In this document: piece by piece, positions 14,405 through 37,772 of the stretch | Position numbering within the stretch: the first letter of the stretch is position 1 | Layout of the letters: every line of letters starts with the position of its first letter | NCBI RefSeq assembly: GCF_014196965.1 | Contig: NZ_JACIEQ010000001.1 | Span: 992,001 to 1,056,000, forward strand | Reading direction: 5' to 3' | DNA from: Actibacterium naphthalenivorans | GTDB taxonomy: Bacteria; Pseudomonadota; Alphaproteobacteria; Rhodobacterales; Rhodobacteraceae | Length of the DNA: 64,000 nt | Notes under the pieces: model-generated | Databases searched by the model: none | Told to the model about the DNA's origin: nothing | What the model saw: the letters and a program-made list of their open reading frames with translations, nothing else | Made by a program: the position numbers and the translations under genes

Positions 14405-14878
14405 GGTACGTGTCCTTGCAAATGGAAGCCCGATAGGTGCCAAAGGCACGCGGGCAAGTCAACGATTGTGGGAAGGATGCGTGCCGGGCACGCGGGATCA
14501 GGCGTCAGGCGCGGCGGCGTCGACGTCGGACAGCGGGGATATGGGTCCGTGTGATCATGCCATGGCGATAATCCCAAACGCTGCGCCTGTCCAGCCCCGG
14601 AGGGGCCGCGGCGGGCATGAAAACCCCGCGCATCTGCACCCGCGAAACGCCCGGGCGAAGGAAATTTTGCCCGTGATCGCCGGTGCGGGGCGCAAAAGCC
14701 GGGGGGCGGCCACCGCAACTGGTTGAAATTTCGCCGCCGCCCCCCAGATATGCGTGTCTGCGCCGGGCTTGTATCCCGGTGCCCACCCCGAATAGAATGG
14801 GGTCTGAAGAATTTTCAAAGGTGACCGGCCTGGAATGGGCCCATGGGTCTGCCGGACACCGCCAGCCAAGGAAATGAC
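14405..14878. other. Intergenic region between argD and gcrA
   Basis: This 474-bp gap holds the divergent promoters of argD and gcrA. I see no convincing gene in it. It contains GC-rich sequence and a candidate sigma-70-type promoter for gcrA near 14769-14798. An imperfect GGGC...GCCC hairpin lies near 14653-14672. Confidence 0.5.
14769..14798 (+). promoter_or_regulatory. Candidate housekeeping promoter of gcrA
   Basis: TTGTAT (14769-14774) and TAGAAT (14793-14798) are separated by 18 bases. These are fair matches to -35 and -10 hexamers, about 80 bp upstream of the gcrA start. Inference from sequence only. Confidence 0.35.
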
Positions 14879-20502: not shown

Positions 20503-21117
20503 TCAATACCCGGCGATGGCGCCGGCCAGGTCCCGCCGTCGCCAGATCCCGCGCACCTGTGAGGTGATCACGCTGTTGGGCCGGAACATGCGGATATGAC
20601 CATCCCAGTACACGTCGAACCGCTTGTAGCCACCTGTCAGGGATTGCGCGTGGTTCGATACCGCAACGGCCGTCACGGTGACCGCCGTCAGGGCTTCCAT
20701 CGTCTCGTCGATGGCCTTCGTCGCGACGCTGCGGCCCACGAGGTCACGGAAGCTACCCAGGTCAAGCGCCTCGCCGCCTGCCAGCGGGCCCTTGATCGTC
20801 CGCTCGAGCGGGCGGTCGGCCTGGTCCAGGGGCATCTCGCTCCGGTCGGTGATGACATAGCGCTCCTGCCGGTTCTCGAAGGACAGATCGATGACCACCG
20901 CCGCCAGATATACCGGCTCGGACCCCATGTTGGTGACGATGCAGCGGGCGTTCTCGTCCGTCGCGGCCCCCAGATCGAGATGCAGAATGCACTGCCTCTG
21001 CCGCAGGAACCCCATCAGGATCAGGTGCAGGTAGACGACCCAGACAAGCAGCATCAGTGCATTGAGTACCAGGTTCAGAAGATCCATATACTGCTGTATC
21101 CAGCTCAGGAGTGCCAT
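20503..21117 (-). CDS. Membrane-anchored hypothetical protein, last gene of the glycan operon
   Basis: A 204-residue protein that I do not recognise. One transmembrane helix lies at about 13-36 (LLNLVLNALMLLVWVVYLHL). The remainder looks like a soluble beta-rich domain with LHLDLGA, ARCIVTNMGSEPVYLAAVVI and WDGHIRMFRPNSVITSQVRGIW. The frame is open to 21351, but the region upstream overlaps the methyltransferase gene. The ATG at 21117 leaves a 10-base gap to that gene, so it is probably translated from the same mRNA. It could tether or present the cluster product, but that is a guess. Confidence 0.65.
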   Translation of the reverse strand: MALLSWIQQYMDLLNLVLNALMLLVWVVYLHLILMGFLRQRQCILHLDLGAATDENARCIVTNMGSEPVYLAAVVIDLSFENRQERYVITDRSEMPLDQADRPLERTIKGPLAGGEALDLGSFRDLVGRSVATKAIDETMEALTAVTVTAVAVSNHAQSLTGGYKRFDVYWDGHIRMFRPNSVITSQVRGIWRRRDLAGAIAGY

Positions 21118-21127
21118 GCCGACCCCG

Positions 21128-21865
21128 TCAGCGTCCGCCGCATGGGGGTGGATCGACCGCCTCTGGCCGGGGACCGCGACGGCAGAGATAGACCTCGGGC
21201 TCGGGATGCGCCTCGATTTGAAACCCCGCACTGCGCAGCATCGCCTCGCTCGCCGCTTGGTTCGGAACGAACCAGTTGGTCGGGTCCTGCGCGTAGCGAT
21301 GTTCGATGAAATGCAGCCTGGGCCAGTCGTTGCGGTCGAACGGTGTTTCATCCTCGAAGGCGTAGTCCGGGGCAGGTTTGGCCACGGCGTCGCTGCCCCG
21401 CTGCATCGACTGGAACAGCATGATGTCGCCCGCAGCGTGTTCCCACAACAGATCGAGCGCCAGCAGCGGGTGTCGGAGGTGGTAGAAGACGCCCATGAAG
21501 ATCACCATGTCAAAGCGTTCACCAAGCTCCGCGACGTCGTAGACGGACATCTGGCGCAGGTCGATCTCGACCCCTTCTGTCCTTGCCGCCAGCTCTGCCT
21601 GCGCCAAGTAGCGCGGGTCGCTGTCGATCCCGACCACGCGCGCTGCGCCGCGCCGGGCCATCTCGATCGCATAGAACCCGGCATTGCAGCCGATGTCGAG
21701 CACCGTGCGGCCTGTCAGGTCATCGGGCACGATATGGCGGAAACCCTGCCATTTGAACGAAGGGTAGTCCCCGAGCGGATGGTCCGGCGCGGTTTCGATC
21801 CCGCCCAGACGGAGATTGTGGAACCAGGGTTGCAGGTCCCTGATGCGGGTGCCCAGATCCGTCAT
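21128..21865 (-). CDS. SAM-dependent methyltransferase, TIGR04290-like
   Basis: A 245-residue class I methyltransferase. Motif I is VLDIGCNAG (55-63), followed by the acidic residue of motif II in VVGIDSDPRY. The N-terminal signature RDLQPWFHNLRLGG and the segment FMGVFYHLRHPLLALD resemble the TIGR04290 (Rta_06860) family as I recall it. That family is found with glycosyltransferase and epimerase genes of unknown product. The start overlaps the stop of the upstream epimerase gene by four bases (ATGA), so translation is coupled. It probably methylates a sugar or aglycone made by this cluster. Confidence 0.82.
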   Translation of the reverse strand: MTDLGTRIRDLQPWFHNLRLGGIETAPDHPLGDYPSFKWQGFRHIVPDDLTGRTVLDIGCNAGFYAIEMARRGAARVVGIDSDPRYLAQAELAARTEGVEIDLRQMSVYDVAELGERFDMVIFMGVFYHLRHPLLALDLLWEHAAGDIMLFQSMQRGSDAVAKPAPDYAFEDETPFDRNDWPRLHFIEHRYAQDPTNWFVPNQAASEAMLRSAGFQIEAHPEPEVYLCRRGPRPEAVDPPPCGGR

Positions 21866-22860
21866 TCCGCCGCTCTTGCCACGTCGTCTCCGGCGACGCT
21901 GCGATGCTCGGGGATTGCGAACCATGCCGCTGTGCTGGCAAGGCCCTCATGGAACGGCACCCTGGGCTCCCAGCCCAGAAGGTCGCGCGCCAGGCCGATG
22001 TCGGGCTGGCGACGTCTGGGATCGTCCGAGGGCAGCGGATGGAACACGATCTCCGATGACGAGGGGATGGCCCGCAGAATCAGCCGCGCCAGGTCGAGGA
22101 CCGAGATCTCGGCCGGATTTCCAAGATTGACGGGACCTGCCGGGGTCGCCTCCACCGCCGCCAGGGCGATCAGCCCGCGCACCAGATCACTCACGTAGCA
22201 GAAACTGCGCGTCTGGCTGCCGTCGCCATAGACGGTGAGGTCCCTGCCCTCCAGCGCCTGGACCAGGAAATTCGATACGATCCGCCCGTCATCGGACCGC
22301 ATCCTGGGGCCATAGGTATTGAATATCCGCGCGACGCGGACATCCACACCGAGGTCCCGCCGGTGGTCATAGCACAGCGACTCCGCCGCCCGCTTGCCCT
22401 CGTCATAGCAGGCACGGATGCCGATCGGGTTGACGTGACCCCAGTAATCCTCGCGCTGCGGGTGCAGTTCGGGGTCGCCGTAAACCTCGCTGGTGGAGGC
22501 TTGGAGGTACCGCGCGCCCGACTGCGCGGCCAGGGCAAGCAGGTTGCGCGTGCCCACCACGTTGGTCATCATCGTGCGGACCGGATCGGCCTGGTAATGC
22601 GGCGGCGAGGCCGGAGAGGCGAGATTGAAGATCCAGTCGACAGGCTCCTCCGGCAGCGGATCGGTGGCGACGTCGGCCTCGACCAGCCGAAAGTTGTGGT
22701 CGTTCTCCAGTGGCGCAACGTTGCTGCGCCGACCGGTATGGAAGTTGTCGACGCAGACAACACGTATGCCACGCGCCAGCAGGGCGTCGCAGAGATGCGA
22801 GCCGACGAACCCGGCCCCGCCCGCGACAAGGGCCGTAAGGGGAATGCGGACCAAGGTCAT
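21862..22860 (-). CDS. NAD-dependent sugar epimerase/dehydratase, UDP-glucuronate decarboxylase-like
   Basis: A 332-residue extended SDR. The NAD motif GGAGFVGSH is at 14-22, the catalytic pair is Tyr152/Lys156 in CYDEGKRAAE, and the Ser/Thr lies in ASTSEVYGDP. The YDEGKR form and HTGRRSN are typical of UDP-glucuronic acid decarboxylase (UXS), which makes UDP-xylose; a related epimerase is the alternative. It overlaps both neighbours by four bases (ATGA). A UDP-pentose donor would suit the glycosyltransferases encoded just upstream. Confidence 0.85.
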   Translation of the reverse strand: MTLVRIPLTALVAGGAGFVGSHLCDALLARGIRVVCVDNFHTGRRSNVAPLENDHNFRLVEADVATDPLPEEPVDWIFNLASPASPPHYQADPVRTMMTNVVGTRNLLALAAQSGARYLQASTSEVYGDPELHPQREDYWGHVNPIGIRACYDEGKRAAESLCYDHRRDLGVDVRVARIFNTYGPRMRSDDGRIVSNFLVQALEGRDLTVYGDGSQTRSFCYVSDLVRGLIALAAVEATPAGPVNLGNPAEISVLDLARLILRAIPSSSEIVFHPLPSDDPRRRQPDIGLARDLLGWEPRVPFHEGLASTAAWFAIPEHRSVAGDDVARAAE

Positions 22861-23939
22861 GCCGGCACCCCCGACGTGGCGGGCAGTGCCCCGAGTTGCG
22901 ACGCGAGATAGCGCGCCCGCGCCTGACCGGTATGATCGGCCAGAACACTGTCCCGGGCGGCTTTCGCCAGCGCCTTCCTTCTGCTTTCGGACATCGACAG
23001 CGCCGTCACGACCGTCTCGGTCCGATCCGCCAGAAGGATCGCCTTTTCGGGTACCAGCACCTCCTCGATCCCCGGCCAGGGGTCCGAGATGATCGCGGTG
23101 CCACAGGCCGCGGCCTCGAACAGCCGCACCGAGGGCGAATGGCCGATCTTGCGCATGGCCGAGCGCGTGAGGTTCAGCGTGAACCGCTGCGCGTTGTAGA
23201 AGGCGGCGTGATCCGGTGGCGCGACATGTTCCAGCCGCTCGACGTTGAACGGCCAGTCCACATCATCGGGAAACTGCGACCCGGCGACCACGAAACGGCA
23301 TTCCGGCAGACGCCGTGCGGGTTCGATCAGAAGCTCTTCCAGACCCGGCTGCCGGTCAGGGCTGTATGTGCCCAGATACCCGAGGTCCCACTTCTCTTCG
23401 ACGTCCTCCGGGCGGTAACGTTCGGGATCGACCGAACAGTAGAGCGGCGCCACCTTACGTGCGCCCAGATCTCGCAGCCGGTCCAGCGCAGCGCCGCCGG
23501 CGAAGGACAGGTAGAGATCGATCAGCGGCAGCTGCCGGCGCCTGATGTATTCTGCACCGTCGGACTCCAGAGCCGCCAGCGTCACCGGCGTGTCGATATC
23601 GTAGTAGACCAGCCGGCCACGCACCGATTCCGCCAGCCGGTCGAGCAGCGCCACGGAATCCGGCACGTACGACCCGATTATGACCGCATCGGCCCGCGCG
23701 ATCCGGTCCTGCCAGCGGTCCAGGTCGTCGAGGCCGTCATAGAGCGCGAAGTCGCAGAAATCCGGTTCGGGCAGGTCGCGGTTCGAGGCATACCACGGCA
23801 CGTCCCGCTCCAGGAACAGAACCCTGTGGCCTCCTGCCGCAAGCCCGCGCAGAAGGGCGCGGTAGGTGGTTGCGTGTCCGTTCCCCCAGGACGAAGACAG
23901 GGACAGGCCGAAGATCACGATGTCGAGCGGTGCACTCAT
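22857..23939 (-). CDS. CgeB-like glycosyltransferase (copy 1)
   Basis: A 360-residue protein with a GT-B-like layout as in the CgeB/Glyco_trans_1_2 group. The N terminus IFGLSLSSSWGNGHATTYRALLRGL is split here as SSSWGNGHATTYRALL, sharing the W-x-x-G-x-A-T-x-x-R pattern with the next two genes. The C-terminal sugar-nucleotide region includes PSVRLFEAAACGTAIISDPWPGIEE, in which FEAAACGT is the typical motif. There is no signal peptide, so it is cytosolic. It overlaps its neighbours by four bases on both sides. CgeB itself modifies the Bacillus spore crust; the acceptor here is unknown. Confidence 0.8.
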   Translation of the reverse strand: MSAPLDIVIFGLSLSSSWGNGHATTYRALLRGLAAGGHRVLFLERDVPWYASNRDLPEPDFCDFALYDGLDDLDRWQDRIARADAVIIGSYVPDSVALLDRLAESVRGRLVYYDIDTPVTLAALESDGAEYIRRRQLPLIDLYLSFAGGAALDRLRDLGARKVAPLYCSVDPERYRPEDVEEKWDLGYLGTYSPDRQPGLEELLIEPARRLPECRFVVAGSQFPDDVDWPFNVERLEHVAPPDHAAFYNAQRFTLNLTRSAMRKIGHSPSVRLFEAAACGTAIISDPWPGIEEVLVPEKAILLADRTETVVTALSMSESRRKALAKAARDSVLADHTGQARARYLASQLGALPATSGVPA

Positions 23940-25024
23940 GGCTGAAGCTCCCTTTGCGCGAGTCTGGCGAAGAGGGCGGTGACCTCCTCCGCACGGTTTC
24001 CGTAGGCATGCGCGGAGAGGACCCGCTGCCGTGCGGCCTCTCCGATCCGTTGCGCGTCCTCGGCCGTGAGGTCGCGCAGGATGTCCGTGACGTCGGCTCC
24101 GTCGCGGGCGACCAGCACCTCGCGGCCGGGGGCGAGGAACAGCTCGATCCCTTCCCAGGCGTCGGTGATCAGGCAGGCCCCCGCGCCCGCGGCCTCAAAG
24201 ATCCGCGTCGCCGGGGAAAAGCCGGTTTCGGCCATGCTGTCGCGCGCGATGTTCAGCACGGCGCGGGGCGTCACGTTGAAGGCGTTGTGATCGTCCGTGC
24301 CGACGTGGCCTATGGCGTGGACGTTCGGCGGCAGCTCGGATCCGTTCCACCCCGATCCGCCAAGTATGAAGTGCCGGTCCGGCCTCGCCCGCGCAGGCGA
24401 AAGGAAGAACTCCGCCACGCGCGCTTCCCGGTCCGGCAGGCGATTGCCAAGAAACCCCAGCTCGGCGGCGAAGCGCGGGTCGGGCGGCACAGGGAAGTGT
24501 GTCGCGGGGTCGAGCGCGTTGTAGATCGGGACGCAATCCCTTGCGCCAAGCGCGCGGTAGGCATCGATCACCGGCTGCCCGCCGCCGTAGGTCAGAACGG
24601 TTTCGAAGTCCGGCAGATCCCGGCGCAGCGGATGCGACGGATCGGCCCGCATGGCGGCCAGCGTGGCCGGGGCGTCGACATCCCACCACACCCGCAGCGC
24701 ATCAGGCGCGGCCCGGTCCAGCACCGCGCGGCGCAACGCGTCATCCTCGTATCCGATGCCCGAGGCGACAACGACCACATCGGTCCGCGCGGCCCCCTCC
24801 GCCGCCCGGCGCAGCCCCTGGGGCGTGCCCTCCCAGATGACGACGCGGCTCCAGTCCGGCGGATCCATGTCTCGGTGCTTCTGCCGGTCCCACACGTCGG
24901 GTTCGTAAAAGGTCGTTTCGCAGCCATGCGCGGCCAGAGCACGGATGATGCCCCGGTAGTATGTCGCGGCGCCGTTCCAATAGGACGACAGCAGGCTTGA
25001 TCCGTAGAAGGCGATTGTGGTCAT
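23936..25024 (-). CDS. CgeB-like glycosyltransferase (copy 2)
   Basis: A 362-residue paralogue of its two neighbours. The N terminus has SSYWNGAATYYRGIIRAL, the middle WWDVDAPATLAAM, and the C terminus FSPATRIFEAAGAGACLITDAW. The middle motif corresponds to YYDIDTPVTLAAL in copy 1, which shows common descent. The frame is open to 25255, but the conserved start is ATG at 25024, which shares one base with the stop of copy 3 (TGATG). Cytosolic, substrate unknown. Confidence 0.8.
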   Translation of the reverse strand: MTTIAFYGSSLLSSYWNGAATYYRGIIRALAAHGCETTFYEPDVWDRQKHRDMDPPDWSRVVIWEGTPQGLRRAAEGAARTDVVVVASGIGYEDDALRRAVLDRAAPDALRVWWDVDAPATLAAMRADPSHPLRRDLPDFETVLTYGGGQPVIDAYRALGARDCVPIYNALDPATHFPVPPDPRFAAELGFLGNRLPDREARVAEFFLSPARARPDRHFILGGSGWNGSELPPNVHAIGHVGTDDHNAFNVTPRAVLNIARDSMAETGFSPATRIFEAAGAGACLITDAWEGIELFLAPGREVLVARDGADVTDILRDLTAEDAQRIGEAARQRVLSAHAYGNRAEEVTALFARLAQRELQP

Positions 25025-26130
25025 CAGGCAGTCTCCCTGGTGCGGGTTCCGATCGTGTCGAGGATTGCCAGAAGTTCTGCCGCGCGGTGGCGGCAGGTAT
25101 GGCGGGCGCGGATCGTTTCCAGTCCGCAGGCGGCAAGGTTTTGCGCCAGGGCGCGGTCGGCAAGGATGTCCCGCAAGCGGCACTTCATGTCCTCTCCGTT
25201 CGCGGCGATCAGATAGTCCGTCCCGGGACGGAACAGCCCCTCTGAGTCTTCCCACGGGGCACAGACCAGCGGGATGCCGCAGGCCATCGCCTCGAAGGGG
25301 CGGATGGTGGGAATGCCGGACAGCGCCTCTACGTAGGGTCGGCGGGGTATGTGGACCGTCACGCGGTGACGGGCGAAGGCCTCGGGAACGTCCGCGTTCG
25401 CGATGGATCCCGCATAGTCGATGCCCGCCGCAGACAGGGCCCGCCGCGCGTCCTCCGGATATCTCACCCCGTGCACGGTCGCCGACAGGTTCAGTTCGGC
25501 CACCGGACGCACGAGTAATTCGTGCAGCTCCGCCGAGCGTTCGCCGTCGCCCCAGTTTCCGACCCAGATCAGGTCGCGCTCCGGCGCGATCTCGGGAAGC
25601 GGGCGGAACACGGTGTCGTCCGCGGCCTCGTGCCAGGTAAAGACGCGGCTTCCCCAGCCTTCGGCCAAGTAGCGTTGGCGCAAGGTCTCGCCGAAAGCCA
25701 GCACGCCGTCATAGGCCGACAGGTCGAGCGTGCGAAGCTCCTCTCCCGCCGACACGGCGCGATGATGCGTGTCGTGGAACAAAAGGCGGAACGGCGCCCC
25801 ACGGGCCCGCATTCGTCCCAGATCCGCCACGACCTGCGGGTCGGTCCATTCGTGAACGACAACGACATCGCTCTTCTCCAGCACCTCCGCCACTTCGTCC
25901 AGACCGCCGTAACTTTCGCTGCGCAGATCGGGAAAGGTGGCGTGAAAGGCGCGTAGGGCGGCCTCGCCCCGGTCGGCGATCAGGTTACTGCGTGACCAGC
26001 CATCGGCAGGTTCGAGGGCAAGGCATTCGTGCCCCGCAGCCTGAAGCGCCCGCATCACACCGCGCAGGAAATGCGCGTTGCCGTGGTTCCAGTCTGAAAC
26101 CAGCGAGTGAGTGAAGAACGTGAATTTCAT
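25024..26130 (-). CDS. CgeB-like glycosyltransferase (copy 3)
   Basis: A 368-residue member of the tandem trio, the most divergent at its N terminus (SLVSDWNHGNAHFLRGVMRA). The middle has FRLLFHDTHHRAV in place of the DxDxPxTLAAL motif. The C-terminal donor-binding region GIPTIRPFEAMACGIPLVCAPW keeps the FEAMACG motif. It overlaps the GT4 gene start region by four bases (ATGA). The different middle motif suggests a different sugar donor from copies 1 and 2. No membrane segments. Confidence 0.8.
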   Translation of the reverse strand: MKFTFFTHSLVSDWNHGNAHFLRGVMRALQAAGHECLALEPADGWSRSNLIADRGEAALRAFHATFPDLRSESYGGLDEVAEVLEKSDVVVVHEWTDPQVVADLGRMRARGAPFRLLFHDTHHRAVSAGEELRTLDLSAYDGVLAFGETLRQRYLAEGWGSRVFTWHEAADDTVFRPLPEIAPERDLIWVGNWGDGERSAELHELLVRPVAELNLSATVHGVRYPEDARRALSAAGIDYAGSIANADVPEAFARHRVTVHIPRRPYVEALSGIPTIRPFEAMACGIPLVCAPWEDSEGLFRPGTDYLIAANGEDMKCRLRDILADRALAQNLAACGLETIRARHTCRHRAAELLAILDTIGTRTRETA

Positions 26131-27209
26131 GATGTCACCTGCGCGTCCGCGATGATGCCCGCGTAGAGCGCGGTCGTCTTTTGCACCTGTTCGTCCATCG
26201 AATAGCGCAGCGCCCGGTCCTGGGCCGCCCGGCCAAGGGCCAGCCGTGTCGCGGGATCATCCAGCAGGTTCGTCATCGCCCGCGCCAGTTCGGCCGGGTC
26301 GTGCGGGTTGAAAAAGCGCGCGGCCTCGCCCCAGATCTCGCGGTAGACGGGGATGTCCGCTAGGAGCAAGGGACGCCCCGCCCGCGCGGCCTCGAGCGCG
26401 GCGAGACCGAAGGGTTCGTACAAGGAGGGCGAGACGAACAGGCTGCTCCGGGCGATGCGTTGCAATGTGGCGTCATGGGGCTGCGCAGTCGGCGCCGGGG
26501 CGCAGTTCGGCTCAAAGCGCTGGCCGTTCGGCCCCTCGGCATCGCCGATCATTGTCACCGTCGCACCGCTCAGCAACGCCGCACGGTGCAACACCGCCCC
26601 GTTCTTGGCCCGGTCCCACCAGCGCGCCACCGCGATGACGCTTCCGTCTCCTTCGTCCGGGGCGATCAGCGGCGACCGTCCAGCATTCGGAACGGCGACG
26701 ATCCCATGCAGGTCGTACACCCGCTCCGTCAGGGCGGCATGGGCGGCCGAGGGCGCGGCGATCCGGTCCAGGTTGCGCAATCCCGCTCGGGTCATGTCCA
26801 CCTGCCAGGACAGGCGGTCGGGCACGCAACCGTTTTCCATGACCTGGAACCACGTGGCGAGGCAGGAATGCGTCACCCCGAGCCTCGGCGGTCCGCCGCG
26901 CAATCCCGCAGCCAGGGCGGGCTGGTTAAAATGCATCAGGTCCGTCCGCCTCTTGTGCGCCACCGACATGAGCCAGCTCGCAACCTTCGCCAGATCCTGT
27001 GGTCCTGTGGCCATCCAGTCGAGCGGGGCGTCGCTCCAGTCGAGCGTGCCGATCGACCGCGCCTCAGCGCGTTGCGCAGCGTCGGGTTCGGGTCCGAACC
27101 CGGCAAAGGCGATGCCGTATCCCTCGGTTGCCAGGGCGGCGGCCAGGTCCACCGCATAGCGCCAGACCCCGCCGACGGCGTCGACGGTCACGAGAATGTT
27201 CAGGCTCAT
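26127..27209 (-). CDS. Glycosyltransferase family 4 protein
   Basis: A 360-residue GT-B glycosyltransferase. The N terminus MSLNILVTVDAVGGVWRYA is the usual GT4 acceptor-domain start with a glycine-rich loop. The C-terminal donor domain has SLFVSPSLYEPFGLAALEAA, where E-x7-E (E in YEPFG and in ALEAA) is the GT4 signature. A longer frame to 27623 is rejected because the ATG at 27209 overlaps the previous gene stop by four bases. Cytosolic. It may start or extend the glycan on which the CgeB-like enzymes act. Confidence 0.85.
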   Translation of the reverse strand: MSLNILVTVDAVGGVWRYAVDLAAALATEGYGIAFAGFGPEPDAAQRAEARSIGTLDWSDAPLDWMATGPQDLAKVASWLMSVAHKRRTDLMHFNQPALAAGLRGGPPRLGVTHSCLATWFQVMENGCVPDRLSWQVDMTRAGLRNLDRIAAPSAAHAALTERVYDLHGIVAVPNAGRSPLIAPDEGDGSVIAVARWWDRAKNGAVLHRAALLSGATVTMIGDAEGPNGQRFEPNCAPAPTAQPHDATLQRIARSSLFVSPSLYEPFGLAALEAARAGRPLLLADIPVYREIWGEAARFFNPHDPAELARAMTNLLDDPATRLALGRAAQDRALRYSMDEQVQKTTALYAGIIADAQVTS

Positions 27210-29191
27210 GCGAGGATCCTTTCGGGTTCCGGGTGGACGCGGTGTTCGGCCAGCCAGCCCGCCAGTCGCGCGATGCCTTGGCGCCAGTCGGTCCGCGCCC
27301 GCCAGCCTGTCGCCGCTGTCAGAGCGGCGGTGTCGGCGACAAACCAGGGCTGATCGCCCTGCCGCCAGTCCCGGTAGACGACCTCGGGTGTCACGCCGGT
27401 GACGCGGGTGATCTCTGCCAGGGCCTGTCGCAAGCTGATCGCATTGGCGGGACCGCCGCCGAGGTTGAACGCCCGGCCCGACAGCGCATCGATGCGGTCG
27501 TGCACCATGCGATAGGCAGCCACGGCGTCCGAGACTTCGCAGACGTCGCGGACCTGTCGGCCGGAACCGTAGATCGTCAGGGGATCGCCGCGCAGCGCCG
27601 AGATCAGGAAATGCGCGAGCCATCCCTGGTCTTCAGTACCGAACTGGCGCGGACCGTAGATGCAGGACATCCGCAGCACCGCGGCCTTCAGCCCGTAGCT
27701 ATGCGCGTAATCCATCACGTACTGGTCCGCCACGCCCTTGGAACAGCCATAGGGGGTGCAGAAATCGAGCGGACGACATTCGGTCACGCCCCGGCCTTGC
27801 GCGGCATCGGCGGGCACCACGCACTCCGCCGTTTCATGCAGGTCGATGTCGGCGAGGGCCCCGTAAACCTTGTTCGTCGAGGCGAAGACCAAAGGTATCT
27901 CGCGTCCCGAGGCGCGCACGGCCTCCAGCACATTCAGGGTCCCGCGCGCGTTCACCTCGAAATCCTCGACCGGGGTGTCGAGGCTGGTGGTCACGGCGGT
28001 CTGCGCCGCCAGATGGAAAACCGCTGCGGCGTCCCGGACAGCGCTGTTCAATGCCTGCGTATCGCGCAGGTCGAACGGCGCGGGATGGACCCGGGCCCCG
28101 AAATGGGCGCTGAGCCAGCCGAGGTTCTCCTCCACACCCGGTCGCGAGAGGTTGTCGAGCACCAGGACCTCCTGTCCGTCCGCAAGGAGACTTTCGCTGA
28201 GATTGGACCCGATGAAACCCGCGCCGCCGGTCACCACCACGGGCCGTTTGCCACCGGCCAGTGCCGGAAAGGACAGCCGGGTGACCTCGCGCAGCCGCGC
28301 GACCCCGCCCTCGGCCAGCATGCGTGCCAGCAGCTTGGGCTGTCCGTCGGCGGTGATCGCGCCCAGATGATAGTGCCGGGGATCGAACCACAGGCCTTCC
28401 TGCACCGCCACGTCGGGCTGGAGATCCTGCCAGCCGTACCAGAAGATCCGCGCGGCGGGCGCGTCGAGCGCCTGCATGAAACGCCGTACCTGCTCCATCT
28501 CGTCGCGACGCCAGGTCGAATAGCCGGTCTCCGTGATCCAGATCTCCGCGTCCCGGTTATGCCTGTCGAGGATTGCGCGCATTTCTCCCAGATGCATGTC
28601 CCAGCCGGTCCAGGATCCCTCTTCGCTGTCCCAGGTTCCTGGAAAGCCGTGAAATCCGACCGCGTGCATGTAGGACAGGATCCCGCGCTGGCCCATCAGG
28701 TCCAGCCAATAGGGATCGAACGGACAGGGCCCGCCCAGCACCGGTTTCCAGCCGCGTTCCCGGATCCAGTAGGCAGCCATGTCGATCATTTCGCAGAACA
28801 GCTCGAACCCCGGGTCCTCGCGCCAGTCGTAATCCAGCAGGTTGTTGGGCTCGTTCCACAACTCCAGGTGCTCGAAATGCGCGCCATAGCGGCTCATCAC
28901 GGTGTCGCAGAAATCCGGCAGGTCCTTCAGAACCTTCGGCGCGCCCGACGTGCGCCCCGTGCGCGACAGCGACGGTGGCGTGTAGTGGACACAGGGCACC
29001 AGCTCGAGGTTGCGCGACAGGCGCGGGATCAGCCAGTCGTACCATTCGGGCCCGCCAGGCGCGTGGTAATCGGCCCAGGACAGATGCGTGCGCAGCCACG
29101 AGGCACCGGTTTCCTCCAGCATCGGCAGCACCGCCTCCACCCTCTCCCGGTCGCCCGGGCGAAACCATTCGACGAAGCCGAAGCGGCTCAT
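27206..29191 (-). CDS. Fusion of a GH-A-type glycoside hydrolase domain and an NAD-dependent sugar epimerase
   Basis: A 661-residue two-domain protein. Residues 1-300 look like a TIM-barrel glycosidase of clan GH-A (GH39/GH5-like). The acid/base candidate is Glu114 in ELWNEPNN and the nucleophile candidate is Glu221 in IWITETGYS. Residues 315-650 are an extended SDR with GGAGFIGSN (322-329), Tyr481/Lys485 in TPYGCSKG and FNLGGGPANAISLRQ, most like CDP-paratose 2-epimerase-type enzymes. No signal peptide, so both activities would be cytosolic. Both ends overlap neighbours by four bases. The frame is continuous with no sign of an assembly join. The substrate is unknown. Confidence 0.86.
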   Translation of the reverse strand: MSRFGFVEWFRPGDRERVEAVLPMLEETGASWLRTHLSWADYHAPGGPEWYDWLIPRLSRNLELVPCVHYTPPSLSRTGRTSGAPKVLKDLPDFCDTVMSRYGAHFEHLELWNEPNNLLDYDWREDPGFELFCEMIDMAAYWIRERGWKPVLGGPCPFDPYWLDLMGQRGILSYMHAVGFHGFPGTWDSEEGSWTGWDMHLGEMRAILDRHNRDAEIWITETGYSTWRRDEMEQVRRFMQALDAPAARIFWYGWQDLQPDVAVQEGLWFDPRHYHLGAITADGQPKLLARMLAEGGVARLREVTRLSFPALAGGKRPVVVTGGAGFIGSNLSESLLADGQEVLVLDNLSRPGVEENLGWLSAHFGARVHPAPFDLRDTQALNSAVRDAAAVFHLAAQTAVTTSLDTPVEDFEVNARGTLNVLEAVRASGREIPLVFASTNKVYGALADIDLHETAECVVPADAAQGRGVTECRPLDFCTPYGCSKGVADQYVMDYAHSYGLKAAVLRMSCIYGPRQFGTEDQGWLAHFLISALRGDPLTIYGSGRQVRDVCEVSDAVAAYRMVHDRIDALSGRAFNLGGGPANAISLRQALAEITRVTGVTPEVVYRDWRQGDQPWFVADTAALTAATGWRARTDWRQGIARLAGWLAEHRVHPEPERILA

Positions 29192-30303
29192 GATACCAGT
29201 CCCCTGACTTCGAGTTCGTTGCGCATCTGGCCACCGCGATCCATCGCAGGGGACTGCCGCACCCAGTCCACGAAGGGCCCGAGGGACTCTTCCAGACGGA
29301 ACTCCGGCGCAAAGCCCAGCATTTCACGGGCGCGCCCGATGTCGGCAAAGCAGTTGCGGATATCGCCCGCGCGGAACCGGCCGAGGATCTCGGGCTGCAG
29401 ATCAGGCCGCTCCATCGCCTCGGCCAGCAGGCTCGCGATCTCTTCGATCGAGTAGGCATTGCCTGAGCCGATGTTGAAGACCTCTCCCGCGACCTCGGAT
29501 TCCAGCGCCAGCCGGAAGGCACGGGCCACGTCGTGGACATGCACGAAGTCGCGCTTTTGTTGCCCGTCCTCGAAAATCGTCGGCCGCTCACCGTTGGCCA
29601 GCCGCGCGGCGAAATTGGCCAGTACACCGGTATAGGGGTTGGACAGCGCCTGCCCTGCGCCAAAGACGTTGAACAGCCGCAGCGCCACTGTCGGCACCTC
29701 GTAGGCCGCACCGAAGATAAGCGCCGCCTGCTCCTGCTGGAATTTCGTCAGGGCGTAGATCGAGGCGAGGTCGGGTCGTTTCGTCTCATCCGTCGCAACA
29801 GCGGCCAGGGCCTCGCCGCCCGGACCGCGTGGTTCCCACAGGCCTTCGTGCAGATTGACCTGCCGCCGCCGCGCTCCGTCGAACAGCTCCCCACTGGGCA
29901 GCACGTAGTAGCCCTCGCCATAGATGCTCATGGAGGACGCGACGACCAGGCGCTGGACCGGATGCGCCGCGATGGCTTCCAGCAGCACGGCGGTGCCAAC
30001 ATCATTGGCGCCGACATAGCGGACGATCTCGTACATGGACTGGCCGACGCCGACCTCGGCGGCCAGGTGGATCACCGCGTCGCATCCCCTTAGCGCCTCT
30101 GCCAGCTTCGGCTGATCACGCATGTCGCCGCGAATGACCGCTGCCTCGGGCGGGACATCCGCCACCGGGTCGGCCCCGGCCTCGCCGTGGACCTGCTCGA
30201 TCATCGCGTCATACAGTCTGACGGCATGGCCTTCGCGGATCAGCTCCGCGGCGACGTGGCGGCCGATGAAGCCGCAGCCTCCGGTGATCAGGACAGTGCT
30301 CAT
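29188..30303 (-). CDS. NAD-dependent sugar epimerase, first gene of the glycan operon
   Basis: A 371-residue extended SDR. The NAD motif GGCGFIGRH begins at 8, and the catalytic pair is Tyr183/Lys187 in IYALTKFQQE. It carries an insertion with YVLPSGELFDGARRR as in dTDP-L-rhamnose 4-epimerase-like or UDP-glucose 4-epimerase-like enzymes. The exact substrate cannot be told. The ATG at 30303 is preceded by GGAAGGAGA, a strong ribosome binding site, unlike the coupled genes that follow. It is the promoter-proximal gene of a nine-gene minus-strand operon reaching 20503. Confidence 0.86.
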   Translation of the reverse strand: MSTVLITGGCGFIGRHVAAELIREGHAVRLYDAMIEQVHGEAGADPVADVPPEAAVIRGDMRDQPKLAEALRGCDAVIHLAAEVGVGQSMYEIVRYVGANDVGTAVLLEAIAAHPVQRLVVASSMSIYGEGYYVLPSGELFDGARRRQVNLHEGLWEPRGPGGEALAAVATDETKRPDLASIYALTKFQQEQAALIFGAAYEVPTVALRLFNVFGAGQALSNPYTGVLANFAARLANGERPTIFEDGQQKRDFVHVHDVARAFRLALESEVAGEVFNIGSGNAYSIEEIASLLAEAMERPDLQPEILGRFRAGDIRNCFADIGRAREMLGFAPEFRLEESLGPFVDWVRQSPAMDRGGQMRNELEVRGLVS

Positions 30304-30337
30304 GGTGGGTCTCCTTCCGGGCATCAACGAGGGTCTG

Positions 30338-30362
30338 AACAGGAGGTGGCGCAGAATGTTCC
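30338..30362 (-). promoter_or_regulatory. EcfG-type (general stress) promoter of the glycan operon
   Basis: On the minus strand GGAAC (30362-30358) is followed after exactly 17 bases by GTT (30340-30338); the base before GTT is T. This matches the EcfG promoter pattern GGAAC-N16/17-(C)GTT known from other Alphaproteobacteria. It ends 34 bp before the start codon at 30303. The first bases after GGAAC are ATT, as in two other sites in this window. Confidence 0.7.
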
Positions 30363-30498
30363 CGCACAATCCGTGACATAGCCGTAGCGCGACCCGGCCG
30401 GAGCTTCTTGTGCAGAGACTTCAATGACTTCCGCTGTGGGAAACGAAGTGGTTCGGGACATGCCCCCGGTCTTCGACCGAATGTCGGCGCCTTGGCTT

Positions 30499-30523
30499 GG
30501 AACATTTCGGGGATGATCCTGTT
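30499..30523 (+). promoter_or_regulatory. EcfG-type (general stress) promoter of the divergent dehydrogenase operon
   Basis: GGAAC (30499-30503), 17 bases, then GTT (30521-30523), again with ATT right after GGAAC and T before GTT. It ends 39 bp before the start at 30563. With the minus-strand site it forms a divergent pair in one 259-bp gap. Confidence 0.7.
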
Positions 30524-30562
30524 CGTCCGCTTCGTAAGCCAGAAATTCGGAAGGTAGGAACC

Positions 30563-31546
30563 ATGGACGGAGCCAGTTTGCAGACACGGATGGTCGCAGC
30601 GCAGATCACACGGGCTGGAGAGGCGGAACTGAAGAACCTTCCGCTGCCCGAGCCGGGGCCGGGCGAGGTCCGGATCAAGATCGAAGGCTGCGGTGTCTGC
30701 GCCTCCAACCTGGGGCCATGGGCGGGACCGGAGTGGATGGACTTCCCGCTGCCGCCCGGCGACCTGGGGCACGAAGCCTGGGGTCATGTCGAAGCGACCG
30801 GCACCGGCGTGCCGCCTGAGCGGCTTGGAGAGCGGGTTGCGGTCTTCGGCACGCGCGGCTTCGCCAGCCACGAAACCGTGCGGGAGGATGCCGCCCTGCC
30901 GGTGCCCCCCGAACTGGGCGAGCGGCCGATCCCGGCGGAACCGCTCGGCTGCGCCGTATCGATCTTCCGTGCCGCCCGCATCGACACCGGAGATACCGTC
31001 GCGATCATCGGGATAGGTTTCTTGGGCGCCGTGCTCATCCGCCTGGCCAGCCGCGCGGGCGCCAGGGTCATCGCGATCTCCCGCCGCGAGGAAAGCCTGG
31101 AACTCGCCCGGAAGATGGGCGCCGGCGACACCGTCGGGATGGATGACCACCACGCGATCCTCGGCCGACTGGATGAACTGACGGGCGGCGCCGGCTGCGA
31201 CATTGCCATCGAATGCACGGGATACCAGTGGCCGCTCGACCTCGCGGCCGAGACGCTGCGCGAAGAGGGGCGGCTGGTCATCGCGGGCTATCATCAGGAC
31301 GGGCCGCGCCAGGTGAACATGCAGCTGTGGAACTGGAAGGCCTTCGACATCGTCAACGCCCACGTCCGCGACCGGGCCACCAACCTCGCCGCGATGCGGG
31401 AGGCGATGGAACTGGTGAAGGAAGGCGTACTGGCCCCCGAACCTCTGTTGACGCACCACCACCCGCTCGACAACCTGGCCGAGGCGTTGAACGAAACCCG
31501 CGACAAGCCGAAGGGCTTCGTCAAGGCCGTCGTGGTGATGCCATGA
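30563..31546 (+). CDS. Zinc-type alcohol dehydrogenase family protein (MDR)
   Basis: A 327-residue medium-chain dehydrogenase. The GroES-like N-terminal domain has the catalytic-zinc ligands Cys46 in CGVCASN and His70/Glu71 in GHEAWG. The four-cysteine structural-zinc loop is absent. A Rossmann domain has AIIGIGFLGAVLI. It probably oxidises a sugar or polyol hydroxyl with NAD(P). The ATG at 30563 follows AAGGTAGGAA, so the upstream frame from 30497 is rejected. It overlaps the next gene by four bases (ATGA). Confidence 0.84.
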   Translation: MDGASLQTRMVAAQITRAGEAELKNLPLPEPGPGEVRIKIEGCGVCASNLGPWAGPEWMDFPLPPGDLGHEAWGHVEATGTGVPPERLGERVAVFGTRGFASHETVREDAALPVPPELGERPIPAEPLGCAVSIFRAARIDTGDTVAIIGIGFLGAVLIRLASRAGARVIAISRREESLELARKMGAGDTVGMDDHHAILGRLDELTGGAGCDIAIECTGYQWPLDLAAETLREEGRLVIAGYHQDGPRQVNMQLWNWKAFDIVNAHVRDRATNLAAMREAMELVKEGVLAPEPLLTHHHPLDNLAEALNETRDKPKGFVKAVVVMP

Positions 31547-32595
31547 GGGACGATGTGGTTCGTTCCCGCCCCCGGCTCGGATTCCTCGGTCTCGGCTGGA
31601 TCGGCCGCAACCGGATGGAGGCCATGGCCGCCACCGACATGGGCGAGATCGTCGCCTATGCCGATCTTGATCCGCAAGCGGTGGCCGAGAGCGACACGTT
31701 GGCGGCCACCGCCACGCGCACGGATTCGCTTGAGGAAATTCTTGCCCTGCAGCCGGACGGAGTGGTCATCGCGACCCCCTCGGCGCTGCATGCGCAACAG
31801 GCGATCCAGGCGCTGGAAGCGGGCGCCTCCGTGTTCTGCCAGAAGCCGCTTGGCCGGAATGCCGGAGAAACGGCCGCCGTCGTCGCCGCCGCAAGGGCGG
31901 CGGACCGGTTGCTAGCCACCGACATGTCCTATCGCCACACGGCGGCGGTGCGTGCCATCGCGGCGGAAATCGCCTCGGGCGGGATGGGAGAGATCTGCGC
32001 GGTGGATCTGACCTTCCACAACGCCTACGGCCCCGACAAACCCTGGTTCCGCAACCGGGCGCTGTCGGGGGGCGGATGCCTGATCGATTTGGGCGTGCAT
32101 CTGGTGGATCTCGCGCTCTGGCTTCTCGACTGGCCCCAGGTCGAATGCACGGCGGCAGCTTTGAAGGCAGCCGGTCGGCCGCTGGATCCTGCAGGCGAGG
32201 CGGTCGAGGATCTCGCCTTCGCCACGTTGGACACCGCGACGGGGGTGCCTATCCGGCTGGCCTGTTCGTGGAACCTTCCTGCGGGCTGCGACTGCGTGCT
32301 GCGCCTGGATTTCTTCGGAACGAAGGGCGGCGTCTCGATCGTGAACAGGGGCGGGTCCTTCTTCAACTTCGAGGCCTGGCGCCACGACGGCTGCGAGACG
32401 CGGCTTCTGTCCGCCCCGCCCGACGACTGGGGCGGACGCGCGGCTGTGGACTGGCTCTCCCGCCTGGCGCACGGAGAGGGGTTCGACGCAGAGTGCGCGC
32501 AGCTTGTGACCGTCGCGCGAACCCTGGACGCGATCTACGCCCGCGCCGGTTTTCCTGAACCCGAGAGTCCGAGTGTCACCAAAGAAATGAAATGA
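31543..32595 (+). CDS. Gfo/Idh/MocA family oxidoreductase
   Basis: A 350-residue NAD(P)-dependent sugar oxidoreductase. The N-terminal Rossmann motif is GFLGLGWIG (13-21). The family's EKP catalytic motif appears as QKPLGRN with Lys101. The second domain has GGGCLIDLGVHLVDLALWLL, with the conserved Asp and His of the family active site. Members act on inositols, sugars and nucleotide sugars. The start ATG overlaps the dehydrogenase stop (ATGA), so the two oxidoreductases are coupled and may act one after the other. Confidence 0.86.
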   Translation: MRDDVVRSRPRLGFLGLGWIGRNRMEAMAATDMGEIVAYADLDPQAVAESDTLAATATRTDSLEEILALQPDGVVIATPSALHAQQAIQALEAGASVFCQKPLGRNAGETAAVVAAARAADRLLATDMSYRHTAAVRAIAAEIASGGMGEICAVDLTFHNAYGPDKPWFRNRALSGGGCLIDLGVHLVDLALWLLDWPQVECTAAALKAAGRPLDPAGEAVEDLAFATLDTATGVPIRLACSWNLPAGCDCVLRLDFFGTKGGVSIVNRGGSFFNFEAWRHDGCETRLLSAPPDDWGGRAAVDWLSRLAHGEGFDAECAQLVTVARTLDAIYARAGFPEPESPSVTKEMK

Positions 32596-32596
32596 C

Positions 32597-32869
32597 ATGA
32601 GCGAAGCAGAAATCACGACGGATCATGATGTCATCCGCAAATGGACGGAATCGCGCGGCGGCCATCCCACCCGTGTCGCCGGGACGGGTGACGGCGGCGT
32701 GCTGCGGATCGATTTCCACCCGCCCGACGACGGTCTCAAGACCATCGAATGGGGCGAATTCTTCACCGTCTTCGAGGACCGCAAGCTGGCCTTTCTGCAT
32801 CTGAATAAGACCGAAGGCGGTCAGCCTAGCCGGTTCAACAAATTCGTGGACCGTGACACGGGCGCGTGA
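32597..32869 (+). CDS. Conserved small protein of unknown function
   Basis: A 90-residue soluble protein starting one base after the Gfo/Idh gene. It has the pattern DHDVIRKWTESRGGHPTRV, then LRIDF, IEWGEFFTVFEDRKLAFL. I recall a family of short proteins with this layout in Alphaproteobacteria and other groups, often mislabelled as glucan branching enzyme; no function is established. As the last gene of a stress-type operon it may be a general stress protein rather than part of the glycan pathway. Confidence 0.75.
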   Translation: MSEAEITTDHDVIRKWTESRGGHPTRVAGTGDGGVLRIDFHPPDDGLKTIEWGEFFTVFEDRKLAFLHLNKTEGGQPSRFNKFVDRDTGA

Positions 32870-32994: not shown

Positions 32995-33579
32995 TCAGTT
33001 GAGCAAATCGCGGCCGCCATCAGAAACGATCCGGCGCAGGCGGTCCATCAGCCACCGGACTTTGACGTCCCCGCCCGACATGTCACCACCCGACTTGAGA
33101 TACGCGATCGCGTCCTCGAGGAGCCGCTCCACGAGGCGGTCGGCGACCACAGGGTCATTGTATATCAATCGCGCGGCAAGACGTAACTTCGGCAGGATCA
33201 CCAACAGATCGTCTTCCGAGCCGCCACTAAAATTGGACATCGTGATGATGGCGGCATCGGACAGGTTCACTACCGGCTTTCGGACGATCGGAACCCGCCA
33301 GAAGCGCCTGGGAAGGTTCACCTCGGCCGGGAGGCCGCTGTAGAACACGATCGGCACGTTCCGCGACATGAGCAAATCCGCGAGCGGAAAGACCTTCTGT
33401 CCGCTAAGATCGATGTCCAGCACGGCGGCATCGGCCTTGTCGGCGAAATCGAACCCGCGCTGCAGAGAAGGCACCGGTCCGAGAACATGGCCACCTGTGC
33501 CGCGCACAAAGTGACTGATGTCCTGAGCCTGCAAATAATCATCCTCGACCACGAGAACGCGACGGACATTCTGCTGCAT
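32995..33579 (-). CDS. Response regulator with C-terminal extension
   Basis: A 194-residue protein. Residues 5-120 are a CheY-like receiver with the acidic pair in VVEDD, the phospho-acceptor Asp55 in VLDIDLSG, a Ser in FYSG, and the conserved Lys in VRKPV. Residues 130-194 are a helical extension that I do not recognise; it has no obvious DNA-binding or sigma-like domain, so it is not a PhyR. It is preceded by an EcfG-type promoter and diverges from the hybrid kinase gene. It is probably a partner or modulator in that signalling path. Confidence 0.85.
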   Translation of the reverse strand: MQQNVRRVLVVEDDYLQAQDISHFVRGTGGHVLGPVPSLQRGFDFADKADAAVLDIDLSGQKVFPLADLLMSRNVPIVFYSGLPAEVNLPRRFWRVPIVRKPVVNLSDAAIITMSNFSGGSEDDLLVILPKLRLAARLIYNDPVVADRLVERLLEDAIAYLKSGGDMSGGDVKVRWLMDRLRRIVSDGGRDLLN

Positions 33580-33611: not shown

Positions 33612-33637
33612 AACGTTTCTGAACCAGTGATGGTTCC
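33612..33637 (-). promoter_or_regulatory. EcfG-type promoter of the response regulator gene
   Basis: Minus-strand GGAAC (33637-33633), 17 bases, then CGTT (33615-33612). This is a full match to the EcfG consensus. It ends 32 bp before the start codon at 33579. Confidence 0.75.
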
Positions 33638-33648
33638 GCACGTCACCG

Positions 33649-33673
33649 GGAACATTTGCGGAGCGCGACTGTT
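33649..33673 (+). promoter_or_regulatory. EcfG-type promoter of the hybrid kinase gene
   Basis: GGAAC (33649-33653), 17 bases, then GTT (33671-33673), with T before GTT. It is back to back with the response regulator promoter (11 bp between the two GGAAC boxes). The downstream start chosen here is at 33888, giving a leader of about 200 bases. Confidence 0.6.
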
Positions 33674-33887
33674 GGGGTTTCAGCACTGATTGCGCCAGGG
33701 TTTCAAGGCCACGATGAAATGGCCGGCCAGTGCAATCAGGACGAAAGCGGCCCTGGCCAGTAGGCAACGCACGATCACATGGAATACGCGAAGGCTGGAG
33801 AGAATGGCCGATCGGCGTTACAGATTGACGAACGGTGGCCCTGCCAGTCTGCATTCGGCAGCGGTGCGGGGCCGCCATGGAGAATAC

Positions 33888-37400: not shown

Positions 37401-37772
37401 GTGCCGATCACTCCTGACGCACTCAGAGGGCGTCGAATTCTGATCGTGGAGGATGAGATCCTCCTTGCCATCGACCTGCAGAACCTGCTCGAGGAAAAGG
37501 GTCTAGAGGTGGTCGGTATCGTTCCGAGCGTCCAGAAAGCCCTCCAGGCGGTCGCGGATCTCAGGCCTGATGTTGCCACGCTGGATCTCAACCTGCGCGG
37601 GCAGTCCTCACAACCCGTGGCGGATGCCCTTCACCAGAGCGGCATCCCTTTCGTCGTGACAAGCGGATACACGACCATGATGTGCGATTTCAGCTATCAG
37701 AACGTGCCATTCGTCAAGAAACCGATCGACGAAAACGAGCTGATGGAGGCGCTGCGCTCGATGCTGGCTTGA
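37401..37772 (+). CDS. Single-domain response regulator
   Basis: A 123-residue stand-alone receiver. It has the acidic pair in LIVEDE, the phospho-acceptor Asp62 in TLDLNLRG, Thr/Ser in VVTSGY and Lys in VKKPID. The start is GTG at 37401, 15 bp after the kinase stop, with GGAAG upstream. It is in one operon with the HWE kinase and so probably its direct phospho-acceptor. Single-domain regulators of this kind act upstream of PhyR in general-stress pathways of some Alphaproteobacteria. Confidence 0.88.
   Translation: MPITPDALRGRRILIVEDEILLAIDLQNLLEEKGLEVVGIVPSVQKALQAVADLRPDVATLDLNLRGQSSQPVADALHQSGIPFVVTSGYTTMMCDFSYQNVPFVKKPIDENELMEALRSMLA

Follow-up and report, generated by a model that had tools for sequence, protein, structure and literature searches.

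The general stress response shields Alphaproteobacteria against salt, heat, oxidation and drying, and much of its regulon is uncharacterized. In mycobacteria, the gene clusters for intracellular methylmannose and methylglucose polysaccharides bring together a methyltransferase, glycosyltransferases and a hydrolase for a methylated saccharide. Here we describe a gene cluster with sites resembling promoters of the general stress response sigma factor EcfG. The cluster lies in a 64-kb stretch of DNA from Actibacterium naphthalenivorans (bases 992001-1056000 of contig C1 in a draft genome of 49 contigs), which we refer to as the window. Reading frames, start codons and overlaps were taken directly from the sequence, and positions are those of the window. 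Like the mycobacterial clusters, this one has a methyltransferase, glycosyltransferases and a hydrolase; unlike them, it has a supply of UDP-xylose, three CgeB-like transferases and, in one of its two versions, an inositol-phosphate synthase.

A second comparison is with the TIGR04290/TIGR04295 neighborhood of NCBIfam (“B12_rSAM_oligo”), in which a TIGR04290 methyltransferase, short-chain dehydrogenase/reductase (SDR) proteins and glycosyltransferases also occur together. Curators have given such a gene set the name “rhizo-twelve”. The radical SAM gene of that neighborhood is absent from the window. Neither these two family names nor “rhizo-twelve” turned up in the literature searched, and no characterized product was found there for the cluster, in agreement with the preliminary description of this locus. 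In the available portions of ten texts on stress regulons (PMC3616915, PMC6180224, PMC12239276, PMC6599016, PMC3892343, PMC4167512, PMC7083833, PMC3188799, PMC8877191 and PMC12542648) the cluster is not named; the last of these does name SMb20231, a gene for a sugar-binding protein.

On balance, and with somewhat better than even confidence, we favor a cytoplasmic pathway under EcfG control that makes a small, O-methylated, pentose-containing oligoglycoside rather than an exported polysaccharide. Two findings go beyond the preliminary description: two cluster versions whose swapping is linked to inositol synthesis, and a cluster hydrolase that occurs in a naturally circularly permuted form.

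Gene organization and conservation

Eight coupled genes on the minus strand (30303-21128) form one operon. From 30303 onward they encode an SDR epimerase resembling GalE and MoeE5 (29188-30303); a fusion (27206-29191) of an N-terminal (beta/alpha)8 glycoside-hydrolase-like barrel (residues 1-310) to a C-terminal SDR of the CDP-tyvelose 2-epimerase type (residues 316-650); a family 4 glycosyltransferase (GT4; 26127-27209, PF13439/PF00534); three CgeB-like glycosyltransferases, designated c (25024-26130), b (23936-25024) and a (22857-23939); a UDP-glucuronate decarboxylase, or UDP-xylose synthase (UXS; 21862-22860); and an S-adenosylmethionine-dependent methyltransferase of the TIGR04290 family (21128-21865). 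Six of the seven junctions are 4-base ATGA overlaps (21862-21865, 22857-22860, 23936-23939, 26127-26130, 27206-27209 and 29188-29191), and the seventh is a 1-base overlap at 25024. On the plus strand, a zinc-dependent alcohol dehydrogenase-like oxidoreductase (ADH; 30563-31546, PF00107/PF08240), whose frame is open from 30497 and whose start was placed at the ATG at 30563, is joined by another ATGA overlap to a Gfo/Idh/MocA oxidoreductase (31543-32595). The intergenic gap between these divergent units (30304-30562) is 259 bp long. Pfam and NCBIfam searches gave the same content: three PF13524 (CgeB-type) transferases, one GT4, three SDR domains, TIGR04290, the zinc ADH and Gfo/Idh. The PF13524 match of transferase a has an E-value of 1.1e-36, and the order of a and c is conserved; transferase b is 57-71% identical to 18 homologues (alignment A1), and its profile search against the PDB gave no chain at E 0.01.

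Gene content, overlaps and the motif pair in the gap are as the preliminary description had them. It also counted a twelve-gene cluster, which is not upheld because one gene is unconserved and another is a mobile neighbor. The first of these, said to be the ninth coupled gene of the minus strand, follows the operon's last gene after 10 bases (20503-21117). It encodes a lineage-specific protein of 204 residues with a hydrophobic N-terminal stretch by eye, and its one match among the other loci searched (L061, 28% identity) lies beyond the operon there; on these comparisons it probably stands outside the conserved pathway. The second, a 90-residue protein (32597-32869, plus strand), is present next to the two oxidoreductases as described, but it is a mobile neighbor: its placement varies between loci, and a second copy in the same genome is 67% identical.

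The preliminary description proposed looking for the same gene order in other genomes, and it recurs across Alphaproteobacteria; the genes stay together in many bacteria of soil, marine and plant-associated habitats. When named genomes were scanned with the second CgeB-like transferase, at least 554 relatives were recovered. Among the best 80, which were kept, the order is held in most, some being rearranged (L139) or cut stretches; we refer to homologous loci by numbers of this kind. The closest named relative of 23936-25024 among the matches listed is from Pseudooceanicola batsensis (locus L066, 78% identical). TIGR04290 scores above its cut-off in 16 of 385 genomes of the class, and 9 of 295 genomes in the family have a match to the fusion protein (2 of the 9 over the SDR half only); both counts include the window's genome. 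Carriers include Sinorhizobium meliloti pSymB, Rhizobium etli p42b and an Azospirillum plasmid. In the pSymB record NC_020560.1, homologues of the TIGR04290 methyltransferase and of a cluster glycosyltransferase are encoded at 242461-243174 and 245388-246455, and an inositol-phosphate synthase lies near 255.2-256.3 kb. From its gene number, we take SMb20231 to lie near the pSymB copy.

EcfG-type sites in the divergent gap

The pattern GGAAC-N17-GTT is present in both directions in the 259-bp gap, as originally reported: at 30362-30338 on the minus strand, facing the operon, and at 30499-30523 on the plus strand, facing the ADH-Gfo/Idh pair. The GTT ends 34 nt from the ATG at 30303 and 39 nt from the ATG at 30563, respectively. 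Hence, each transcript is preceded at promoter distance by a match to GGAAC-N16-20-(C)GTT. The window has 6 copies of the exact N17 pattern, as compared with 1.19 (sd 1.10) in shuffled sequence, and none of 100 shuffles reached 6.

Both positions are conserved in relatives. Sites are present in both directions in six of seven divergent gaps compared (the window, L040, L042, L043, L044 and L046) and in one direction in the seventh (L041), and the spacer is 17 throughout except for 18 on one side of L042. We also counted sites upstream of each cluster gene except the fusion gene, in every locus whose upstream region was long enough. The operon's first gene has a site ahead of it in 70 of 92 loci (1.4 on average in shuffles, 7 with the reversed motif), and the ADH gene has one in 40 of 63 (0.76 and 2, respectively). 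The seven other cluster genes have 0-4 sites in 60-101 loci: 1/85 for the methyltransferase, 4/88 for the decarboxylase, 2/101, 0/100 and 3/96 for the three CgeB-like genes, 0/97 for GT4 and 0/60 for Gfo/Idh. The gene for the 90-residue protein has its own site in 21 of 32 loci, the window not among them. By family, with smaller groups not listed and close relatives not being independent events, the first-gene site is found in Rhizobiaceae (20/20), Phyllobacteriaceae (17/18), Paracoccaceae (8/8), Roseobacteraceae (2/3), further genomes of the window's family (7/8), Sphingomonadaceae (3/4) and Sphingobiaceae (3/3). In 63 of the 72 loci that have a site (96 loci examined; L146, L147 and L149 left out), the nearest one is 25-60 nt ahead of the operon start.

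The window's genome also encodes the regulators of the response: NepR (58 bits), a PhyR family protein (344 bits, cut-off 240) and, adjoining nepR, a frame for an extracytoplasmic function (ECF) sigma factor with PhyR_sigma2 similarity, hence EcfG-like. Thus, in its motif, the distance to the start and the presence of a NepR-PhyR-EcfG-like set in the same genome, the cluster is like members of the EcfG/RpoE2/SigT regulon. Unlike them, the nearest operon sites lack the C of the canonical CGTT in 68 of 72 cases and have it in 4, whereas the divergent GGAAC...CGTT sites between nepR and phyR of the window's genome retain it. The CGTT-less sites before the operon may be a promoter subclass. The proposal that these are EcfG-type promoters gains support from footprints in dozens of relatives together with the regulator set, and the case is carried by the position and conservation of the putative sites.

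Could a dedicated regulator instead bind the paired motifs as a palindromic operator, GAACA-N15-TGTTC, present in two copies? Both window sites are also perfect GAACA...TGTTC dyads, and GAAC...GTTC dyads remain at both sites in L040 and L043 and at one site in L044. However, L041 (one direction), L042 and L046 keep GGAAC-N17/18-GTT without the dyad, which is thus unconserved in 3 of the 7 gaps, and the sites stand at promoter distance. They also match published motifs for EcfG, given as GGAAC-N17-20-GTT for Sphingomonas melonis and GGAAC-N16-CGTT for R. etli in the portions of PMC6599016 and PMC3892343 available. We set the operator aside as highly improbable and retain EcfG-type promoters as the reading of these sites.

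By eye, a CTTCTTCAATGACTTC-like element lies between the two sites of the window (30404-30439), and also in the gaps of L040 (repeated), L041 and L044.

Predicted activities of the cluster enzymes

The preliminary description expected a pentose in the product. This is supported because the protein encoded at 21862-22860 matches solved UDP-glucuronate decarboxylases: it scores 384 bits against UXS1 chains over residues 10-314, as compared with 141 bits for the next distinct protein, and has in common with characterized UXS the active-site region NPIG.RACYDEGKR. Bacterial UDP-apiose/UDP-xylose synthases likewise start from UDP-glucuronate; in contrast to the cluster described here, the available text of PMC5607165 reports no conserved operon around those genes. 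We rejected UDP-apiose synthesis as the known pathway, given 73 bits to the solved plant-type UDP-apiose/xylose synthase versus the 384 to UXS. UDP-glucose dehydrogenase, which supplies the substrate of UXS, adjoins the cluster in 10 loci. The methyltransferase exceeds the curated TIGR04290 cut-off (387 versus 300 bits) and occurs in most homologous clusters, which makes a methylated product, as first suggested, a reasonable expectation.

The SDR domain of the fusion scores 254 bits against the CDP-tyvelose 2-epimerase type and 129 against the next type. In a structure search with the fused model, this domain gave Z 44.0 (root-mean-square deviation [rmsd] 1.6, 328 aligned) versus Z 37.4. It is closer to C2-epimerases such as CDP-paratose/tyvelose 2-epimerase than to GalE or dehydratases, and we predict a C2-epimerase-like nucleotide-sugar enzyme. 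The first SDR is nearest to UDP-GlcNAc C4-epimerase, MoeE5 and GalE-type enzymes. For ADH and Gfo/Idh, the nearest models are cyclitol and sugar dehydrogenases, with scores well under the cut-offs; for Gfo/Idh the nearest NCBIfam model is inositol 2-dehydrogenase (93 bits, cut-off 355).

The PDB matches of Gfo/Idh include DgpA and other sugar dehydrogenases. Together with the hydrolase barrel and the ADH, these might indicate breakdown of plant glycosides, as in glycoside 3-oxidation pathways. Such a role has very little probability in our estimation, since an operon that combines four glycosyltransferases with a UDP-xylose synthase and a methyltransferase is biosynthetic, and this one has no sugar transporter. 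Sets of glycosyltransferases, methyltransferases and epimerases also occur in antibiotic-type clusters, and the product could in principle be a secreted bioactive glycoside. The window operon, however, has no aglycone-building enzyme and no resistance or export gene, and wide conservation with EcfG-type promoters better suits a core stress function; we regard secretion of an antibiotic-like metabolite as quite improbable. A biosynthetic oligoglycoside pathway remains our preferred interpretation of the enzyme set.

Two versions of the cluster

The cluster exists in two versions. In type II, which includes the window, the hydrolase barrel is fused to the C2-epimerase-like SDR. The SDR of type I is a separate protein, accompanied by a module of inositol-1-phosphate synthase, phosphatase and a permuted hydrolase. 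Of 101 loci with the SDR (L146, L147 and L149 left out), 47 have the fusion, none of them with an inositol-phosphate synthase in the stretch examined, whereas 39 of the 54 non-fused loci carry the synthase. Genome-wide searches (PF01658) in 54 genomes found the synthase in 2 of 39 with the fusion and 13 of 15 without, the 15 having mostly been chosen for lacking a synthase near the cluster. The base rate is 35/385 in the class and 7/16 among TIGR04290 genomes. All 14 unlinked synthase genes fetched sit in a synthase-histidine phosphatase-hydrolase module, 12 with an EcfG-type site and 10 with the methyltransferase in or near the module. Among 43 synthase genes in cluster loci, 23 have an EcfG-type site ahead of them (0.5 in shuffles, 1 with the reversed motif); S. 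meliloti strains account for two of the 23. The core acceptor in type I is probably inositol, because this EcfG-linked module supplies both inositol-1-phosphate synthase and phosphatase.

In a 99-row tree built from the second CgeB-like transferase (L049, L056, L057, L111, L138, L146, L147 and L149-L152 left out; L095, L101, L115 and L129, which had no genome-wide search, without a synthase state), there were at least 10 changes in the fusion state and at least 9 in the synthase. Well-supported branches provide four independent pairs, and all branches together provide 10. In 200 random pairings, changes of the synthase ran opposite to those of the fusion in a mean of 3.8 of the four and never ran the same way; four pairs are too few for a sign test to reach 0.05. 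The versions seem to have been swapped repeatedly rather than once, with few supported swaps. A joint swap of the methyltransferase and the type module was considered and dropped: in gene-by-gene trees, which left out nine divergent loci, the methyltransferase tree needed 4 changes of type versus 7-11 for other genes with all available loci, but 5 versus 5-7 with the same 65 loci.

A circularly permuted hydrolase

The AlphaFold model of the fused protein (mean pLDDT 83.7) has eight strands in canonical order within the first 310 residues (5-7, 32-38, 63-69, 108-112, 149-152, 177-182, 216-222 and 248-252). Clan GH-A enzymes are (beta/alpha)8 barrels with one Glu after strand 4 and another at strand 7, and the barrel encoded at 27206-29191 is of this type: E114 and E221, the candidate catalytic pair, are invariant in 29 sequences. 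Residues 115-119, beside the candidate acid/base, fall below pLDDT 50. The Pfam model for glycoside hydrolase family 39 (GH39) gave 12.7 bits against a cut-off of 26 (E 0.055), and the best PDB chain by profile had an E-value of 0.031. Two annotated records label the type I module hydrolase a beta-xylosidase.

The separate hydrolase of type I is a natural circular permutant of the fused barrel; one such protein is encoded at 7242-8156 of L161. Residues 7-201 of the separate hydrolase correspond to 111-299 of the fused barrel (E 9e-23), and its residues 197-294 correspond to 4-103 (E 4e-11). With half-profiles built from the fused barrels of 28 proteins, every one of the 56 separate hydrolases showed the permuted order (two are fragments, and 54 of the sequences are distinct; the worst i-Evalue for the N-terminal half was 3e-12), and all 28 fused barrels showed the canonical one. 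Across the 12,599 reading frames of all loci, with overlapping loci counted more than once, there were 121 matches, comprising 63 permuted, 53 canonical and 5 with one half. Reciprocal half-profiles from the permuted proteins matched 28 of 28 fused barrels. The profile comparison of alignments A4 and A5 recovered the strand 4-8 half only, and the other half was recovered by blastp and the half-profiles. Misannotation does not account for the missing N-terminal part, since 39 aligned permuted proteins have an invariant Met-Ile start a few residues ahead of the motif WNEPNN, and in nine there are at most seven codons between the previous stop and the start Met.

The model of the permuted protein (pLDDT 87.2, pTM 0.88) likewise has eight strands, the WNEPNN strand being first. 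A structure search with it returned generic full-length TIM barrels of mixed families (best Z 13.7, rmsd 3.6, 241 aligned) and, as partial hits, GH10 and GH2 enzymes; no close structural family was seen, which does not exclude one. The corresponding list for the fused model was filled by SDR matches, so it includes no separate barrel comparison. A regular-expression count of the catalytic motifs with fixed neighbors gave 23/39 for permuted and 19/28 for fused proteins, a stricter requirement than the two alignment-invariant glutamates. The literature searched on natural permutation in hydrolases includes, in the portions available, the permuted GH13 enzyme MalS; the hydrolase of this cluster was not found there.

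Proposed pathway and alternatives

What might the cluster make? We propose that EcfG RNA polymerase would start both transcripts within the 259-bp gap. The decarboxylase would convert UDP-glucuronate to UDP-xylose, a step with strong family evidence, and the GalE-like and C2-epimerase-like SDRs would supply one or two more nucleotide sugars. The three CgeB-like transferases and GT4 would assemble an oligosaccharide, and the methyltransferase would cap it. ADH and Gfo/Idh may epimerize, or oxidize and reduce, a ring carbon, and the fused hydrolase may trim or recycle the product or a primer. In type I, the synthase and phosphatase would provide inositol as the acceptor. The product is probably kept in the cell, since the cluster has no exporter, and is probably a protectant, given the EcfG-type promoters.

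An alternative is that the same enzymes make, in the cytoplasm, a stress-induced surface glycan or glycolipid head group that is exported or flipped by machinery encoded elsewhere. Such transferases act on surface glycans too. In 13 loci the flanking genes include a recurring ABC-transporter ATPase family, and the available text of PMC6599016 describes EcfG-regulated glycosyltransferase and exopolysaccharide genes in S. melonis Fr1. Against this, the window's cluster genes include no transporter, priming transferase, flippase, polymerase or exporter, the components of a Wzx/Wzy or ABC-exported polysaccharide locus. Moreover, no signal peptide is visible by eye in the hydrolase, and its fusion partner is a nucleotide-sugar SDR, a cytoplasmic type of enzyme. 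We view a surface glycan as unlikely, though it is the alternative that we take most seriously.

Several observations weigh against an EcfG-controlled oligoglycoside pathway. In the window's genome as a whole, the short motif is not enriched, either as GGAAC-N16-18-GTT (319 versus 340 for the reversed control) or as GGAAC-N16-17-CGTT (66 versus 81). The motif alone therefore proves nothing; we did not use enrichment as evidence and tested conservation instead. An exact site ahead of the operon is absent from 22 of 92 loci, and the first-gene site is missing from Devosiaceae (0/4), Azospirillaceae (0/4), Erythrobacteraceae (0/2) and Aurantimonadaceae (0/2). The flanking ABC-transporter ATPase belongs to a family that cross-matches easily, and a DUF1003 protein, membrane-like by eye, lies in the flanks of 19 loci; neither is listed for the window. 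Finally, no inositol-phosphate synthase was found in the window's genome, and its best IolD match scores 176 bits (cut-off 715). We therefore set aside an inositol-based product for the window's type II cluster and claim inositol for type I only.

More tentatively, the two versions may serve one widespread, unrecognized stress metabolite of Alphaproteobacteria: an intracellular O-methylated, xylose-containing oligoglycoside made by interchangeable EcfG-controlled pathways. Type I would build it on inositol with the permuted hydrolase, and type II without inositol synthesis, with the canonical barrel fused to the C2-epimerase. We hold this broader idea as possible rather than probable.

Genes adjoining the cluster

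In the flanks of the cluster, 13 gene families recur in at least eight loci each. The radical SAM gene was found in 31 of 101 loci, and all three of its proteins that were scored exceed the TIGR04295 cut-off; the 64-kb window has no match to the TIGR04295 protein of L104. Beside the inositol-phosphate synthase of L104 lies a 623-codon frame (13535-15406, minus strand; Mesorhizobium and Sinorhizobium) that has no Pfam match and, by eye, joins a phosphoribosyltransferase-like part to a kinase-like domain; similar frames occur in 13 other loci. A nucleotidyltransferase-metallophosphoesterase pair stands beside the cluster in L150 (2105-3644) and eight other loci (Rhizobium and two Phyllobacteriaceae), with an EcfG-type site ahead of the nucleotidyltransferase in 7 of the 9. 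A gammaproteobacterial copy of the cluster, on a plasmid of Xanthomonas sacchari (L152), adjoins a sigma-54 dependent regulator, and no EcfG-type site was seen upstream of its first gene.

The window contains a second divergent pair of EcfG-type sites (33612-33637, minus strand; 33649-33673, plus strand). It separates a 194-residue protein without a Pfam match (32995-33579, minus strand) from a CheB-CheR-PAS-HWE histidine kinase (33690-37385, plus strand), which is followed by the third gene of this group (37401-37772, plus strand). Frames resembling these three recur near other cluster copies, and they include a receiver-domain protein (L104, 1234-1689) and a frame with weak PhyR_sigma2 similarity (L088, 3015-3605). 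This suggests that a stress-signaling island adjoins the cluster. Furthermore, an ECF sigma factor is encoded near the cluster in 12 loci (L145, 15139-15672, and L040, L044, L066, L074, L075, L080, L097, L114, L121, L128 and L133). The one member scanned has PhyR_sigma2 similarity, and this type is possibly an EcfG paralogue.

Significance

The cluster is real and conserved, it has EcfG-type sites, and its product is undescribed as far as the literature was searched; the interpretation in the preliminary description is partly supported. In S. meliloti, 150 of 202 RpoE2-induced protein genes are without a predicted function, according to the available text of PMC3616915. Here, a multi-enzyme pathway with EcfG-type sites is found in many families of the class, S. 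meliloti and R. etli being among its carriers. Concrete chemical and structural predictions follow from the inositol module and from the permuted hydrolase. If the repeated swapping of versions is true, it would amount to a natural experiment on the choice of acceptor and on barrel permutation.

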